Assembly (NCBI GenBank): GCA_005116965.1
Contig: SWDG01000026.1
Coordinates: forward strand, 143,027 to 192,459
DNA: 49,433 nucleotides
Direction: 5' to 3'
From: Nitrospira sp.
Lineage (GTDB): Bacteria > Nitrospirota > Nitrospiria > Nitrospirales > Nitrospiraceae
The number at the start of each line of letters is the position of its first letter. Within the stretch, counting starts at the first letter, position 1. Shown here in pieces: positions 29,093 to 37,360 of the stretch. The notes below the pieces were generated by a model. That model made no database searches. It saw only the letters and a list, made by a program, of their open reading frames with translations, and had not been told where the DNA came from. The position numbers and the translations under genes were made by a program.

Positions 29093-30580
29093 TTAGACGA
29101 TCACGCTGTCGAGGTGTGTCCGCACATCTTCCAGATAGGTCTTAAACGGGTCCGGCATGGGAAACGGGGCGCGCCCCCGCACTTGGAAGATCGACCAATT
29201 GATGACATAGGCAGGGAACAAGCCATCAGAGGCTGGAAGCTGATCCGCCACTGAAGCGGGCCGCTCACTCAAGAGAGATCTAACCAGCTCACTGCGGCCG
29301 TAGGCACGCGTGTTTTTGGGCGCAGTGTCCATCGCGAGATCAATGAGGCGGTCCGTCGTCACACGAGGGACACGTCCCTCTTCCAATAATCCGTGATACA
29401 GCCCCTTCGCTGGATTCAGATTGTGATACTCCAAGTCTAAACTCTTCAGCATAGGATCGGCCCACTCGACACGTTCCGCTTCCCGGAAGCAGTCCAGCAA
29501 CCACAGCTTGGACGCCCAATCAACACGCCCGATGAGCTTCTGATAATCGCCGCGCAGATCATGGAGCACTGATGCCCATTGGGCGAGAACCCAATCGGTT
29601 TCTTCATCCTGCCCTCTATAATGCCGGACGGCACAGTCAAGAAACCGTTCTTGAATATCCACAGCCGACATCATCTTGTGAGACTGTAACCGGACCAGCC
29701 AGCGCCGTTCTTGATCCTGTGAAATCTCTTGGAGCGCTTCCACCGGTTCGTCGATCTCTAATTCTTGAGGCGCATGTCCCTCCTCAATCAGCTGCAGCAC
29801 CAGCCCGGTCGTACCCAGCTTCAATGCTGTCGCATATTCGGCCATATTAGAATCGCCCAGCAGCAGATGAATCCGTCGGTATTGATTGGGGTCCGCCAAC
29901 GGTTCATCCCTCGTATTCACAATCGCCCGATTATGCTGCACCCATTCGAAAAAATCGTTCACGATATAATCGGCACGTTGAGAAATTTGAAAGGGCAACT
30001 CCGATACATGTTGCCCACCGAAACTCGAACGTGGAACAAGTAACCGATCCACCTGAATCCAGGCGTCTTGTGGGGCTGCGGAACCGACACGCCCAGAGCC
30101 GGTAAAAATCTGCCTGGTCACAAGAAACGTCACAAGCGGAACCATCCCGCGTCTCGAAAAAGGAAACCGTCGAGACACCAGGTAATTCTCATGCGAACCG
30201 AAGGTCGCATCCGTCTCATGATCGATGTTGTTCTTGATCAACGACACCTGGTCAGAAAACTCGAGAGCTTCGATCGTTCGCTGCAACAAAAGATCCCCTG
30301 CACGGTCCGACGCCACGACATCCATGAGAGAATGACATTCCGGCGAAGCATACTCCAAGTGCCCCATGTCCAAATACATTCGTCCGGCGTTGGTCAGAAA
30401 TCCCCCATTGCCAGGAGGCTCATCATGGCCCCGATGGTGCAAATCCAGCACGCCACGCCGCTGAACCTGGAACAGATGATCACGAATCTTCTGCGCAAAC
30501 CACGCCGGAGAATGGTCCGGTCGATCCTCGTGGATCAAGAGTCCGTATTCAGTCTCTAAACCGAAGATACGATTCAACAT
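29093..30580 (-). CDS. pafA: PafA-type ligase for the UBact/Pup modifier
   Basis: This 495-residue carboxylate-amine ligase of the PafA/Dop fold attaches the C-terminal Glu of the modifier to target lysines using ATP. The N-terminal IFGLETEYGLL carries the nucleotide/Mg-binding Glu. MYLDMGHLEYASPECHS contains the catalytic Asp (Asp71). KNNIDHETDATFGSHENYLV, NTRDEPLADPNQYRRIHLL and LDLEYHNLNPAKGLYHGL are the other shared motifs. It lacks the long loop that marks Dop, which is why it is called PafA rather than Dop. It starts four bases after the proteasome alpha gene. Confidence 0.93.
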   Translation of the reverse strand: MLNRIFGLETEYGLLIHEDRPDHSPAWFAQKIRDHLFQVQRRGVLDLHHRGHDEPPGNGGFLTNAGRMYLDMGHLEYASPECHSLMDVVASDRAGDLLLQRTIEALEFSDQVSLIKNNIDHETDATFGSHENYLVSRRFPFSRRGMVPLVTFLVTRQIFTGSGRVGSAAPQDAWIQVDRLLVPRSSFGGQHVSELPFQISQRADYIVNDFFEWVQHNRAIVNTRDEPLADPNQYRRIHLLLGDSNMAEYATALKLGTTGLVLQLIEEGHAPQELEIDEPVEALQEISQDQERRWLVRLQSHKMMSAVDIQERFLDCAVRHYRGQDEETDWVLAQWASVLHDLRGDYQKLIGRVDWASKLWLLDCFREAERVEWADPMLKSLDLEYHNLNPAKGLYHGLLEEGRVPRVTTDRLIDLAMDTAPKNTRAYGRSELVRSLLSERPASVADQLPASDGLFPAYVINWSIFQVRGRAPFPMPDPFKTYLEDVRTHLDSVIV

Positions 30581-30584
30581 GCTA

Positions 30585-31394
30585 TTACGAGAGTGATGGG
30601 CTCAGCTCATTGGGGAGCAGTGTTTTCAGTTCATCAACCCCAAGGGCTCGATACTTGGAGGGTCCTTGCACATGGCGATCAAGCAAGGCACATTCGACCG
30701 TCTTTTCAGCAATACATCGCCGCAGATAGGCATAGAGTGTCTCAGTATCCGTCGCTAGCTGATCAGGGCTGGTCCTCGCCTCGTCATGGCCTTCTCCCTC
30801 GTCCAGGGCTCGTCGCTGCGCTTGATCACCGACCGCCCACGTGCGAATCGCCGCACCGACAGCGTCCGCAAGAGACGCAAGAGACTGCTCTCGGAGATAT
30901 CCCGCCATCTTCTGCTCGACCGCCGACGTCGCAGCAAGCACTGCGTACTGGCTCTTTTCCTCAAACGTCCCGTCGTAGTTGATCGTCAAGAACCCGTCTT
31001 TCCCGGCTTTCTGTCCGAGCTCTGCCAGCAAGATTTTCACGATGAAGGGGGCCTTGAATACCTCTTCAAACGCCTGTTTGATTGCCGGCGCCATCCCGTA
31101 CTTCACCAGACGGCCTCCAGTCACATCGGACGCTGAGCGATTGAATCCTTCGACGTGAGCCATCTCCAACAGATTGAATCGCAGCTTCTCAAGATCAGCT
31201 GGGTGGCCCATCCCACCCAGGGCTAGACGATCGTAAATCTCATAGAGTTTGGGTGTGCCCTTGCTCATCGTCATGAGCAGAATGCCGCGCTCACACGTGA
31301 CACCGACAACAGGGGCCCCCTCCTTAAACTGCTCATCGAGATAGGTCCGACGATTACCAACTGCTTCGACCCATTTATATGGTTCTTCATACAT
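30585..31394 (-). CDS. prcA: 20S proteasome alpha subunit
   Basis: This 269-residue subunit forms the outer, gating rings of the 20S core. The proteasome fold is seen in VVGVTCERGILLMTMSK, LYEIYDRLALGGMGHPADLE and GRLVKYGMAPAIKQAFEEVF. There is no processed N-terminal Thr, as expected for alpha. The N-terminus (MYEEPYKWVEAVGNRRTYL) is the predicted gate region. The C-terminal third is charged and variable. The start overlaps the beta subunit gene by eight bases. Confidence 0.92.
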   Translation of the reverse strand: MYEEPYKWVEAVGNRRTYLDEQFKEGAPVVGVTCERGILLMTMSKGTPKLYEIYDRLALGGMGHPADLEKLRFNLLEMAHVEGFNRSASDVTGGRLVKYGMAPAIKQAFEEVFKAPFIVKILLAELGQKAGKDGFLTINYDGTFEEKSQYAVLAATSAVEQKMAGYLREQSLASLADAVGAAIRTWAVGDQAQRRALDEGEGHDEARTSPDQLATDTETLYAYLRRCIAEKTVECALLDRHVQGPSKYRALGVDELKTLLPNELSPSLS

Positions 31395-32160
31395 GGCGGC
31401 TGACCTTTGCCTCGAACAAGGGCTTCAATTGCGCGTCCGGCATCGTGCGCACACCGGAGGCGGTGATGAATTTGATCACCGGATAGAGACCAGCTTCTCG
31501 ATTGACCCCTCCGGTCGCGCTGTCGAATTCTGCGGCACTCGTCAACAGTCTCAATGCCTGAACAGTCGCCTGCTCTTCCAGCATCGCGCTCAACGGCTGT
31601 TCGCCCCATGTATTCACGTAATGGAGGATTCCGCGAATAGTCGGTGAACCGGACCCGGATACTGCATAATCCACTCCTTCGAACTCCGCACCAAGAATGT
31701 CGTAAAAATAGATCTTTGCCGCTTCCTGCTCGAAGTCGTACCCGGCAAAGATCGGCACCACAGCACCCGTCCCCGCCAGCGCCGCCGGGACGTTGTCTTT
31801 CAGCAACTTTGAGAGGGCCCTGAGTTTCCCCTCAAAACTGAGTTCCTGAAGCTGCGTCCGCCGAAAATACTTGAACGAATGTTCAAGGATGCGCGCCATT
31901 TCATACGCCGTTGCTGGCACTCCGGCGATCGCCATGACACTATGCCGATCGATCTCCAACACCTTATCAGTGCGGTCGTACATCACCATATTGCCGGCGG
32001 TCGCACGCCGATCCCCGGCGACCAACACTCCATCGCGGTACTTGAACGCGAGGATCGTCGTAGCCGTTGTCAGTTCCTGCCCTCGCGCAGCCTGCCCCAG
32101 CACGCCAAACACATACCCCTGTCCTTTCAACAGCTGATAGAAATCGCTCTGCATACCCAT
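31387..32160 (-). CDS. prcB: 20S proteasome beta subunit (catalytic)
   Basis: From the ATG at 32160 (AGGTGA just upstream) this is a 257-residue precursor with a 33-residue propeptide ending ELTTA. Cleavage would expose TTILAFKYRDGVLVAGDRRA. Counting from that Thr1, Asp17 and Lys33 are in place, so the full catalytic set is present. The mature subunit would form the inner proteolytic rings. An in-frame TTG at 32196 would lengthen the propeptide by 12 residues but has no good ribosome site. The downstream alpha gene overlaps it. Confidence 0.95.
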   Translation of the reverse strand: MGMQSDFYQLLKGQGYVFGVLGQAARGQELTTATTILAFKYRDGVLVAGDRRATAGNMVMYDRTDKVLEIDRHSVMAIAGVPATAYEMARILEHSFKYFRRTQLQELSFEGKLRALSKLLKDNVPAALAGTGAVVPIFAGYDFEQEAAKIYFYDILGAEFEGVDYAVSGSGSPTIRGILHYVNTWGEQPLSAMLEEQATVQALRLLTSAAEFDSATGGVNREAGLYPVIKFITASGVRTMPDAQLKPLFEAKVSRHV

Positions 32161-32240
32161 TGGTTCACCTAGTGCTGAATGCTGATCCCTAATCAAAGCG
32201 CTGTTTCCTCCTCAGCGCTCGGGAGTCAACACGTCTTCGA

Positions 32241-32435
32241 CTATTCACCCGTCCGCTGCCGATACCGCTCTGCCTGTTTGGGATCGACCTTGCGCATCCG
32301 CTTCATGAGGCTATCCTTCTCAGGTGATCCCGTATCCGGCCGTCGCGGCCCGCCGCCTTCTTCCTGTGGACTTGGCGATTTCGGCATAGGATCAACTGGC
32401 CCCTCACGTCGTTCCGGCGTCATACCGTGTGTCAT
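32241..32435 (-). CDS. ubact: UBact/Pup-like protein modifier
   Basis: This 64-residue, hydrophilic and probably disordered protein ends KQAERYRQRTGE. It lies directly between dop and the proteasome beta gene, the position of Pup in actinobacteria. Its N-terminal half is rich in Pro, Gly and Glu, and its C-terminal half is helical and basic. The C-terminal R-T-G-E matches the UBact family described from Nitrospirota and other gram-negative phyla. Pup usually ends Gly-Gly-Gln or Gly-Gly-Glu. The terminal Glu is genome-encoded, so it should be ligation-ready. The start overlaps the dop stop (ATGA). Confidence 0.92.
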   Translation of the reverse strand: MTHGMTPERREGPVDPMPKSPSPQEEGGGPRRPDTGSPEKDSLMKRMRKVDPKQAERYRQRTGE

Positions 32436-33958
32436 GCGTCACCATCCTTCCTGTGTCGCCAGGTTGCCAGCGCATCAGCCGGTGAATGGGCACACTGGAA
32501 GACACCCATGCATCGTCGGACTTCCTGTGGATCAAAGAGATCTCCCATCTCCAGACTGTGCGCGCGCAACCTACCTACGAACTGAATCCGTTCCCATTGC
32601 ATCGATTGAATCTGATCAGGAAAACGCTGTACGCAGAGCCCGCGCAGCCCGCCACGGGTATCGCTTGGACCATTCCGAATCGCCTCGTCAATTGTCTCGT
32701 CGGTCGTCATCCGCCAAGCTTTCCCCTCGGCTTCCAATCCTAGGTACAGCCCTTGTTCAGGATTGATATTGTGATACTCCAAGTCCAAGCTTGCCAACCA
32801 GGGATCGTCCCAGCCAAGCCGCTCTTCTCGTAGAAACGTCTCGAGCAACCACTGTTTCGTGATCCAATCGAGCTTCCCCACTAACTGTGAACGGTCTTGC
32901 GACAATAGACGCAAGGTATTACTCCACTCATTCAATAGCCAATCCGACTCTTCGTCTGATCCGGCCAACTCGTGGCATGCCGCCTCACAGTAATGCGCTT
33001 GAAGTTCCACGGCAGAAAGCCTCTGTCCATTTTTGAGACGAACCACTGCTTTCAGGTCCGGATCGCGTGACACCTGTTTCACGGCGGCCACCGGCTGATC
33101 CAAAACAAGATCAGGCGCAGCCCCTCGCTCGATGAGATCGAGCACGAGCCTGGTCGTCCCGACCTTGAGCGCCGTCGCATACTCGCACATGTTGGCGTCG
33201 CCGATGATGAGATGGAGCCGCCGATACTTCTCACGATCCGCATGAGGCTCATCTCTGGTGTTGAGAATCGGTCGGTTATGCATCGTATCGACGCCCAACT
33301 CAGCCTCCATAAAGTCGGCGCGTTGAGAGAGCTGATACGCTCCGGGAACATGCCCGGACTCCTGCGCTTCGGTCCCGACCTTCCCCGCACCGGCAATGAC
33401 CTGTCGGCTCACCAAGAACGGCATCAAGCCGGTAACGAGAGCCGGGAAGGGAACGGCCCGCGAGACGAGATAGTTGTCGTGACAGCCATAACTGTGACCG
33501 TGGAAATCTGTGTTGTTTTTGTACAGCCGGAGGTGCGGGCCGCCAAGTGTCCGATTACGTCGCTGAGCAGCGCGGAGAACGATACGCTCACCCGCACGAT
33601 CTTGAGCCAGCAGGTCTCGAAGTGTTCGGCACTCAGGCGTTGAATATTCCGGATGCGTATGGTCGTTATAGAATCGTGCGCCGTTCGGCAACACGAGGTC
33701 ACTCTTCATGTCATGGAACGAAAAGGGACGATGGGCATCGCGTTGTGCGAACTCATCCTCCTCTCGATCCTGCTGCAAGCCCGAGGCACGAAAGCCGCGA
33801 ACGTCCTCATGTGGATCCTCACCCGCATAGTCCCAACGCCTCTCAAAGGAAGCATCCAGATGGGCCCGCACCAATTCCATCGACTCGACGACTGGATCCA
33901 CTTCCGGCACGTCATCGCGCGTGATCCCGTATTCAGTTTCAATACCAAAAAGACGCAT
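32432..33958 (-). CDS. dop: Dop-type depupylase (UBact-specific)
   Basis: This 508-residue PafA homologue has MRLFGIETEYGIT at the start, the catalytic Asp99 in ARFYNDHTHPEYSTPECRT, YKNNTDFHGHSYGCHDNYLV, NTRDEPHADREKYRRLHLI and LDLEYHNINPEQGLYLGL. Between about residues 45 and 88 it carries an insert (GEDPHEDVRGFRASG onward) corresponding to the Dop-loop, which PafA lacks. Dop removes the modifier from substrates and in actinobacteria also deamidates Pup. Deamidation should be unnecessary here because the modifier ends in Glu. It starts 63 bases after the ARC gene. Confidence 0.93.
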   Translation of the reverse strand: MRLFGIETEYGITRDDVPEVDPVVESMELVRAHLDASFERRWDYAGEDPHEDVRGFRASGLQQDREEDEFAQRDAHRPFSFHDMKSDLVLPNGARFYNDHTHPEYSTPECRTLRDLLAQDRAGERIVLRAAQRRNRTLGGPHLRLYKNNTDFHGHSYGCHDNYLVSRAVPFPALVTGLMPFLVSRQVIAGAGKVGTEAQESGHVPGAYQLSQRADFMEAELGVDTMHNRPILNTRDEPHADREKYRRLHLIIGDANMCEYATALKVGTTRLVLDLIERGAAPDLVLDQPVAAVKQVSRDPDLKAVVRLKNGQRLSAVELQAHYCEAACHELAGSDEESDWLLNEWSNTLRLLSQDRSQLVGKLDWITKQWLLETFLREERLGWDDPWLASLDLEYHNINPEQGLYLGLEAEGKAWRMTTDETIDEAIRNGPSDTRGGLRGLCVQRFPDQIQSMQWERIQFVGRLRAHSLEMGDLFDPQEVRRCMGVFQCAHSPADALATWRHRKDGDA

Positions 33959-34021: not shown

Positions 34022-35758
34022 TCAAATGATCTGATTGACCAGGCGCTCTTCGGTCTGACGCCCACGCCGGAACGACGAAACCCCAACAACCTGTTCCGGG
34101 TGATGATCCAGCAGCTTCAGCCACTCCTCCGCCGCATCGTCCGGCGGCAACATGTTACCCTCTCGAAATTCCTCTGAGACGGAATCCAAGAAGTCTTTGG
34201 TCTGCAAGCCAGACGGCTGCCCCGACTGAACCGTACGGTCGATCGCCTTTTCCTTGGCACGCTGAACAATCGACGCCAAGATGGCTCCGCTCACCAGATC
34301 GCCACGGTACAGCACCTTGTGTTGCCCGCTCCTGAGCCTGATGGACAGCAGCCGATTATCCTCCGTTCGACGGAAGATGGACTCGATGATGTCTGCAACG
34401 AGCGAAGCCACCGCTCGCACGTGCTCACCGCCTCGTTCCTGTATCAACGCCGGATCCAGCGGCAGATCCACTGTTAAATAGACCCTCATAATATCAGCTG
34501 CAGCATCTCTGCTCGGTCGGCTGACTTTGATTTTCCGATCAATGCGGCCTGGGCGCAGCACCGCCGGATCGATCAAGTCAGGGCGGTTAGACGCCAGGAT
34601 GATGACGACGTCGTGCAGCGACTCGATCCCGTCCATTTCACTGCAAAACATTGGCACGAGCGTGTTCGAGATATTGAAGGATCGCATGGCGCGTCGCGTT
34701 CCCAAAATCGACTCCGCTTCGTCGATAAAGATAAACGGCAAGGCGCCATCCCTGCGTCTCGCCCTGGCTTGCTCGAAGAGGTCACGAACCATCCGCTCCG
34801 ATTCCCCCAGCCACATGTTGAGGATTTCAGGCCCTTTCACATGCAGGAACGCTCCGCTTGTCACAGGCGGATGCTTGTCCCGATCTGGCTGGTGCTCTGG
34901 CTTGGATTCGCTGACCAGCTTGGCCAAGCTACCGGCGGCCGCTTGCCCGATAAGGGTCTTCCCGCATCCGGGCGGCCCGTAGAGAAGAAAACCCTTGGGT
35001 TGTGAAAACTTGAACCGCTCAAATGTCTCGGCATGAAGCAGTGGATACTCAATCGCCTTTCGAATAGCAGCGATCGCCTCGTTCTGTCCGCCAATCTGCT
35101 CCCAAGTAATGTTCGGTGTTTCGTCAAGGACATGTCGGCTCGCTTTGCGATCGCCCAGTTTTTCGATCGCCACACGGTGGCTAGGATCGATGCGGATCTC
35201 ATCACCCGCCTTGAGCTCCACGTCGACGAGATCGGTCGACCGCTGTAGAATCAACGATTGCCGGCCCATCTCCTGCTCAAACCGCAATCGTCCATCAAGC
35301 ATGGCTTCCGCCAGCTTCAAGATGGGTCCATTCCGATCGTACCCGAGCGTCTTAATCACGGCGTAGGCTTCGTTGACCAGAATCTGACTTCCGATCTTCA
35401 GATCCGTCTCGGGGACGCGGGGGTCCACATTGGCATAGTACTCAGCCCCACCGACGACGATGCGGGCGAGTCCCGCCCCTGGGACATCCAGCAAGATACC
35501 GATTCGACTAGCCGGTGCCGTCAGTTTGGCAACGACCTCGCCGACTTTCTTGAATTCCAGTTCGCGTTGTTGCTGGGCGGCTTGAGACAGCGTCACCGCA
35601 TGGCGCAGCTTATACAGCAGCTTCTGCCGAGCATCTCCCTCTGGAAATGAGGCTAGACATTGCTCAATCAATTCGAGCGGATCGGTCCCCGTCTTCAACG
35701 ACGGGTCATCGTTCCGATTGTTGGGTTCATCCTGTTCAGGAGTTCTACGATCACTCAT
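34022..35758 (-). CDS. arc: Proteasome-associated AAA ATPase ARC/Mpa
   Basis: This protein of about 578 residues has an N-terminal coiled coil (ARQKLLYKLRHAVTLSQAAQ), OB-type domains (about 85-210), and one AAA module with Walker A YGPPGCGKTLIGQAAAG, Walker B LPFIFIDEAES and the arginine-finger region RPGRIDRKIKVSRPSR. ARC/Mpa rings capture tagged proteins through the coiled coil, unfold them and feed the 20S core. The C-terminus reads RLVNQII and lacks the Tyr of the HbYX motif usual for docking. ATG at 35758 has GGAGG seven bases upstream; an in-frame GTG at 35782 is less likely. Confidence 0.93.
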   Translation of the reverse strand: MSDRRTPEQDEPNNRNDDPSLKTGTDPLELIEQCLASFPEGDARQKLLYKLRHAVTLSQAAQQQRELEFKKVGEVVAKLTAPASRIGILLDVPGAGLARIVVGGAEYYANVDPRVPETDLKIGSQILVNEAYAVIKTLGYDRNGPILKLAEAMLDGRLRFEQEMGRQSLILQRSTDLVDVELKAGDEIRIDPSHRVAIEKLGDRKASRHVLDETPNITWEQIGGQNEAIAAIRKAIEYPLLHAETFERFKFSQPKGFLLYGPPGCGKTLIGQAAAGSLAKLVSESKPEHQPDRDKHPPVTSGAFLHVKGPEILNMWLGESERMVRDLFEQARARRRDGALPFIFIDEAESILGTRRAMRSFNISNTLVPMFCSEMDGIESLHDVVIILASNRPDLIDPAVLRPGRIDRKIKVSRPSRDAAADIMRVYLTVDLPLDPALIQERGGEHVRAVASLVADIIESIFRRTEDNRLLSIRLRSGQHKVLYRGDLVSGAILASIVQRAKEKAIDRTVQSGQPSGLQTKDFLDSVSEEFREGNMLPPDDAAEEWLKLLDHHPEQVVGVSSFRRGRQTEERLVNQII

Positions 35759-35823
35759 GGGAGGGCCTCCACAAGACGGCACCGCATGATCCTACCATAC
35801 GCGCACGTTGGATTACCGGTTCA

Positions 35824-36934
<1,111 letters not shown>

Positions 36935-36942
<8 letters not shown>

Positions 36943-37360
36943 CCAAGACCTGCACGACGAGTTCACGCATTCTGGCACGGGTATCGAAATCCACCAGCAC
37001 GATTTGTTGCCAGGTGCCGAGCAGAAGCGCACCGGCCGCAAACGGAATGGTGACCGACGGCCCCTGGAGTTGCCCTCGAAGATGGCTGTGGCCGTTGTCT
37101 TCACCAGGATTCACCGTGTTGTGCTGCCATCGAGGATCAGGAGGAACGAGACGATCCCAAAACGTTTTCGTGTCTGCGCGAATCCCCGGTTCATCCTCAA
37201 TAATCATGACGGAGGCGGTGGTGTGTTTGACGAAGACCGTCACGATTCCGGCCTTGAGGGTAGAACCAGCCAACGCATCGGCAACGGATTTGGTGATGTT
37301 GTCGACCTGCGTCTCACCTTCCATGCGAATCGTCAGCAAAACGGTATGGATACCCATCAT
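36935..37360 (-). CDS. YjbQ/UPF0047 family protein
   Basis: This 141-residue protein matches the YjbQ family: VFVKHTTASVMIIEDEPGI, NTVNPGEDNGHSHLRGQLQGP and GTWQQIVLVDFDTRARMREL. The conserved His residues line a putative active site. Members have weak thiamine-phosphate synthase activity, but their real role is not settled. Its start overlaps the stop of the HD-domain gene and its end overlaps the HtrA start, so all three are translationally linked. Confidence 0.93.

Follow-up and report, generated by a model that had tools for sequence, protein, structure and literature searches.

A conserved tyrosine-free C-terminal tail on the proteasomal ATPase of a UBact system in Nitrospira, and its probable docking in a divergent alpha ring

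The proteasomal ATPase encoded in the window (the whole stretch of DNA analysed, 49,433 nucleotides) ends in RLVNQII, without Tyr. Tails of this kind are conserved across phyla in one of two ATPase types, ARC2, and absent from the other, ARC1; in the alpha subunits that accompany ARC2 a pocket lysine is retained, and the residue equivalent to R26 is lost in most lineages. From these comparisons we consider it probable that ARC2 docks in its own alpha2 ring through a Tyr-free, GQYL-like tail and a co-adapted pocket. The window is best read as encoding the ATPase of a second, UBact-type proteasome, which would stand beside a Pup-type system in one cell.

The locus has the order ARC2–Dop2–UBact–β2–α2–PafA2 and is paralogous to the canonical Pup-proteasome locus. 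Its relevant features are as follows.

34022..35758, minus strand: ARC2, proteasomal AAA ATPase of the UBact system, 578 aa from the ATG at 35758
34805..34819, minus strand: ARC2 pore loop 1, NMWLG (ARC1 counterpart NK[YF]VG)
34025..34045, minus strand: ARC2 tail RLVNQII (Ile-Ile codons 34025-34030; stop 34022-34024)
32432..33958, minus strand: Dop2, Dop-like (TIGR03688, 472 bits, slightly under the cut-off of 492.3)
32241..32435, minus strand: UBact tag, C-terminus RYRQRTGE (NF033388, 77.9 bits, cut-off 35; PF20513, 75.5 bits, cut-off 27.8)
31387..32196, minus strand: 20S beta2, with the Thr1/Asp17/Lys33 pattern
30585..31394, minus strand: 20S alpha2, divergent (TIGR03691, 68.4 bits, under the cut-off of 139.05)
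31320..31322, minus strand: alpha2 Glu25, at the position of Mtb R26 (alignment, codon checked)
31248..31250, minus strand: alpha2 Lys49, equivalent to Mtb K52 and archaeal K66, the putative carboxylate-binding Lys (alignment, codon checked)
31203..31205, minus strand: alpha2 His64, at position 67 (H in 45/48 alpha2, K/R in 41/41 alpha1)
29093..30580, minus strand: PafA2-like ligase of the same operon (TIGR03688/TIGR03686, about 315-326 bits, both under cut-off; fixed operon position)

ARC2 exceeds the Pfam cut-offs for the AAA domain and both Prot_ATP_ID_OB domains (PF17758, PF16450, PF00004), with the architecture of tandem OB domains followed by AAA, and scores 436.4 bits against the TIGR03689 equivalog, under its curated cut-off of 504.75. 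Pore loop 1 reads NMW[LV]G in all 80 ARC2 sequences where it was found, and NK[YF]VG in 65 of 66 ARC1 sequences. The beta-grasp region aligns through in sequence, and AF2 places two strands near residues 468-483, at a monomer pTM of only 0.52. The AF2 model of ARC2 reaches only moderate confidence, with disorder in the last residues, which fits a free tail but carries no information on docking. The tag belongs to UBact by its NF033388 and PF20513 matches and its RTGE end, of the form R[TS]G[EQ]; the catalytic Thr1/Asp17/Lys33 pattern is present in 41/41 beta2 sequences. Two details of gene order may be recorded: a gene for an HtrA/DegP-like trypsin-PDZ protease lies directly upstream of ARC2 (35824-37104), and a Nitrospinaceae UBact operon (L108) carries two beta genes, in the order Dop-beta-alpha-UBact-beta-PafA.

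The ARC2 reading frame is open further, to a GTG at 35782 (ORF 34022-35782, minus strand), and the ATG at 35758 is its likely start, where a conserved MSD is seen in the alignment. The protein ends in RGRQTEERLVNQII, followed by the stop. Translation of the 3' end in three frames gave no alternative end containing Tyr, and ARC2 of 29 other members of the genus (83-99% identity) ends at the identical position, mostly with [VIT]N[QH][IV]I; the DNA past the stop is unlike between these genomes. Since the relatives share the end and differ in the DNA beyond it, the stop is real. A frameshift near 34030 hiding a Tyr-containing end, raised in an earlier sequence-only reading, is ruled out by the three-frame translation and the relatives' common end; nor do close relatives end in HbYX. 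That reading's observation of a Tyr-free ARC tail therefore survives, with Tyr at -2 in 0/84 intact ARC2 sequences. A small correction concerns Mpa, whose tail is GQYL, with Q and no hydrophobic residue preceding Tyr, and has been described as differing from HbYX proper (PMC8142254). In one draft genome (L056:7498-9285) an in-frame stop cuts ARC2 slightly short of its expected end, and the frame beyond it reads I-I-stop.

The ARC2 sequences compared came from Nitrospirota (the class and a distant family, f22), Verrucomicrobia, Poribacteria, Armatimonadota, Nitrospinota, a Gemmatimonadota bin and Acetothermia; the counts hold a few duplicate copies (the window is L008, L044 is L091, and L098 is L169). 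The 84 intact tails end in II (52), VI (16), IE (8), VV (4), IV (3) or AI (1), and never contain Tyr, the IE ending being confined to one family. ARC1 tails, by contrast, have a penultimate Tyr or Phe in 66/66 sequences (YL 60, YF 3, FL 3). In a set of 43 ARC2 sequences thinned to <75% identity, position -2 is I or V in 42, compared with 13% I/V in the protein body, and entropy is about 1.1-1.2 bits at -2 and -1 against about 3 bits per position in the preceding linker. Conservation of the dyad on a drifting linker is the signature of a functional tip carried flexibly, an arrangement known from Mpa. In an ML tree of ARCs built without the tail, a single change accounts for the split in tails and falls on a branch with SH-aLRT 100. 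The neighbouring tag genes divide in the same way, R[TS]G[EQ] tags lying beside ARC2 and GG[EQ] tags beside ARC1. Two variant groups were also seen. ARC2 of a distant family of the phylum (L058-L064, L086) ends in I-E, with Arg at alpha2 position 26 in the seven read, and in Poribacteria (L124, L139, L158) ARC1 ends in GTFL, with Phe for Tyr and Gln at alpha position 26.

A 20S beta gene was present in 11/11 genomes checked, most of which have ARC2 away from beta; none of them has the tail but no core. For ARC2 genes detached from the tag, 10 of the 11 genomes have a UBact-like gene next to the distant beta gene, and in the eleventh the contig is cut at that point. Occurrence of ARC2 in proteasome-less genomes was rejected on the same 11/11 count.

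A whole-genome profile search placed ARC1 of the source genome on another contig (G000:C6), at 738 bits against TIGR03689. It ends in VNTGHYL, is only about 37% identical to ARC2, and has a locus of its own with Dop1, β1, α1 and PafA1. A canonical Pup gene lies at G000:C6:793977-794165, about 55 kb from that locus. Among 79 genomes of the genus, several of them incomplete, 63 carry both ARCs, 8 only ARC1, 5 only ARC2 and 3 neither, and where loci were read each ARC type heads its own alpha/beta operon. The tails of ARC2-only genomes are equally Tyr-free; one of these genomes (G096) is a single 2.56 Mb contig with one ARC, ending in RQIE, and no ARC1. Bacteria of the orders discussed have been said to carry one alpha and one beta subunit, R. 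erythropolis apart (PMC13022661), a statement corrected by the presence of both ATPase types in 63/79 genomes of this genus. PafA1 at L007:14607-16001 ends in RFYR, which is HbYX-like and is not conserved in other genomes. The end occurs in four loci and is absent elsewhere; provision of HbYX by another operon member was accordingly rejected, and the RFYR end judged a coincidence.

In the complex of Mtb 20S with Bpa, alpha R26 is the contact of the GQYL Tyr, and K52 that of the terminal Leu (PMC11953334); archaeal K66 is required by HbYX-dependent and HbYX-independent activators alike (PMC12352868); and the GQYL tip of Mpa, on a flexible linker, binds between alpha subunits (PMC8755798). The AF2 model of alpha2 (pLDDT 91.6) has the alpha fold with an N-terminal H0 helix at 4-23, superposes on Mtb PrcA across residues 8–262 (Z 27), and agrees with the sequence alignment in its N-terminal register, where model residue 8 falls on chain residue 9. 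Lys at the K52 position is found in 48/48 alpha2 (47 distinct) and 41/41 alpha1 sequences, a spurious alpha match (L144) being left out of the alpha2 set. Positions 28 and 29 are R/K and S/A/E in alpha1, and S/T/other and Pro in alpha2. Alpha2 His64 we take to lie opposite archaeal L81, a pocket residue, a placement made by way of the Thermoplasma sequence.

Position 26 varies with the tail. It is R/K in 38/38 alpha1 paired with Tyr tails and Q in 3/3 paired with the Phe tails of Poribacteria; in alpha2 it is non-basic in 31/33 with aliphatic-aliphatic tails (His counted as non-basic), two lineages of this type retaining Lys, and R in 7/7 with I-E tails. In seven further alpha2 sequences, whose loci are detached, the residues there are P, T, T, A, E, G and H. 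Because these associations follow the main clades and provide only two independent comparisons, the covariation is suggestive and not significant: a sign test of tail against position 26 had two informative independent pairs on the tree (p 0.5) and no power. Comparison of ARC C-termini and alpha pockets across UBact phyla, the check proposed in the sequence-only reading, is clear as to Tyr-free tails (84/84) and the kept K52 (48/48), and limited as to position 26, where covariation amounts to only about two independent changes.

These observations are most easily reconciled with a docking scheme of the following kind. Flexible ARC2 C-terminal tails would insert between alpha2 subunits; the free carboxylate of the aliphatic dyad (Q-I-I here) would pair with alpha2 K49, the equivalent of Mtb K52; and the Ile/Val side chains would fill a pocket remodelled by loss of R26 and R28 and by the change from K/R to His at 67. 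The tail would enter the pocket and open the gate, and two tail/pocket pairs would keep the systems apart. The proposal that docking uses another contact is supported in that an aliphatic, Tyr-free tail appears to replace the motif, and needs restriction in that the carboxylate-binding Lys of alpha is retained. Changed tail and changed pocket together suggest a distinct docking code that could separate two proteasomes sharing a cell. A broader formulation, on which we are evenly divided, is that at least two docking codes exist, in which either Tyr-Leu goes with R26 and K52 or an aliphatic dyad goes with K52 and a pocket lined by His; that Phe/Gln and Ile-Glu/Arg combinations are sub-variants; and that the two codes occur side by side in Nitrospira, insulating two complete proteasomes in one cytoplasm. 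Proteasomal ATPases have in general been taken to plug in through a penultimate Tyr, and here an entire branch of bacterial proteasomes is without it; a constrained tail together with a retained pocket Lys separates the carboxylate-lysine role from the tyrosine role, and the presence of both tail/pocket pairs within a single genus opens docking specificity to direct test by swapping tails.

Other explanations of the tail are less probable. One is coupling of ARC2 to the core by a separate adaptor, the alternative offered in the sequence-only reading. With wild-type 20S, Mpa itself shows poor degradation in vitro, and extra factors have been proposed (PMC8142254). However, a family search of the window's genome found no Bpa homologue, so a Bpa-type adaptor is not required; a conserved C-terminus with the Tyr motif is seen in none of the other operon members; the ARC2 tail is itself strongly constrained; and ARC2-only genomes exist. 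We consider this alternative unlikely, and the earlier suggestion is not supported. Equally unlikely, in our estimate, is that the aliphatic tail serves as a ligand of another partner, such as a PDZ protein of the kind encoded by the HtrA-like neighbour, or as a turnover signal, with docking left to the beta-grasp hairpins alone. C-terminal aliphatic residues are typical PDZ ligands, and the HtrA-like gene lies directly upstream in the window's family. Among loci with upstream sequence, however, that neighbour was confined to the ARC2 loci of the window's family, on which ground it was set aside as partner, whereas the tail is conserved across phyla; position -3 matches no single PDZ class, and the alpha lysine is invariant in alpha2. 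The hairpins of Mpa do also contact the H0 helices of the alpha ring (PMC8755798).

Mixed hexamers of ARC1 and ARC2, resembling Rpt1-6, in which only ARC1 tails need the Tyr motif, are more doubtful still. The two ARCs do occur together in most genomes of the genus (63/79), and eukaryotic ATPase rings combine HbYX and non-canonical tails (PMC13022661). Since some genomes have ARC2 alone, among them the single-contig G096 with a tail just as Tyr-free, a mixed ring is not required, and an obligatory one was rejected; moreover, the low identity between the ARCs (about 37%) and a tail that is conserved and not decaying argue against this arrangement. Finally, an artefact at the gene end, whether frameshift, mis-assembly or wrong stop, was raised earlier as something to check and can be virtually dismissed, as independent genomes with unlike downstream DNA, and other phyla, give the same end.

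Docking of ARC2 through its own tail, the reading we prefer, has precedents in part. Among the open papers we found no description of a docking tail/pocket signature for ARCs of UBact systems. Like Mpa/ARC of Actinobacteria (TIGR03689, GQYL), ARC2 has the OB-AAA architecture, the operon order ARC-Dop-tag-beta-alpha-PafA, a flexible linker with a short C-terminal tail, and an alpha Lys to meet the tail carboxylate. It differs in its aliphatic tail, (I/V)-(I/V/E) in place of Tyr-Leu, in a pore loop of NMW[LV]G and not NK[YF]VG, in its score below the equivalog cut-off, and in its pairing with a divergent alpha2 and UBact. The locus shares with the UBact conjugation system (NF033388/PF20513) of Nitrospirota, Verrucomicrobia, Armatimonadota and others the tag, Dop-like and PafA-like genes beside the 20S. 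Two proteasome/pupylation systems were noted earlier in Leptospirillum ferrooxidans (PMC3511204, Fig. 2 legend), where a Nitrospirae genome likewise holds two complete systems of divergent sequence, and the tag of the second locus (L2) lacks GGE, a likeness to the UBact locus. In the text consulted we found no discussion of ARC C-termini or alpha pockets, and the present case differs in that the pairing is genus-wide and extends across phyla. HbYX-independent activators (11S/PA26) and non-canonical Rpt tails are precedents for a tail that is free of the Tyr motif and may still depend on the alpha Lys; unlike the non-ATPase 11S/PA26 or the mixed rings of Rpt, ARC2 is an ATPase of which every subunit would bear the aliphatic tail.
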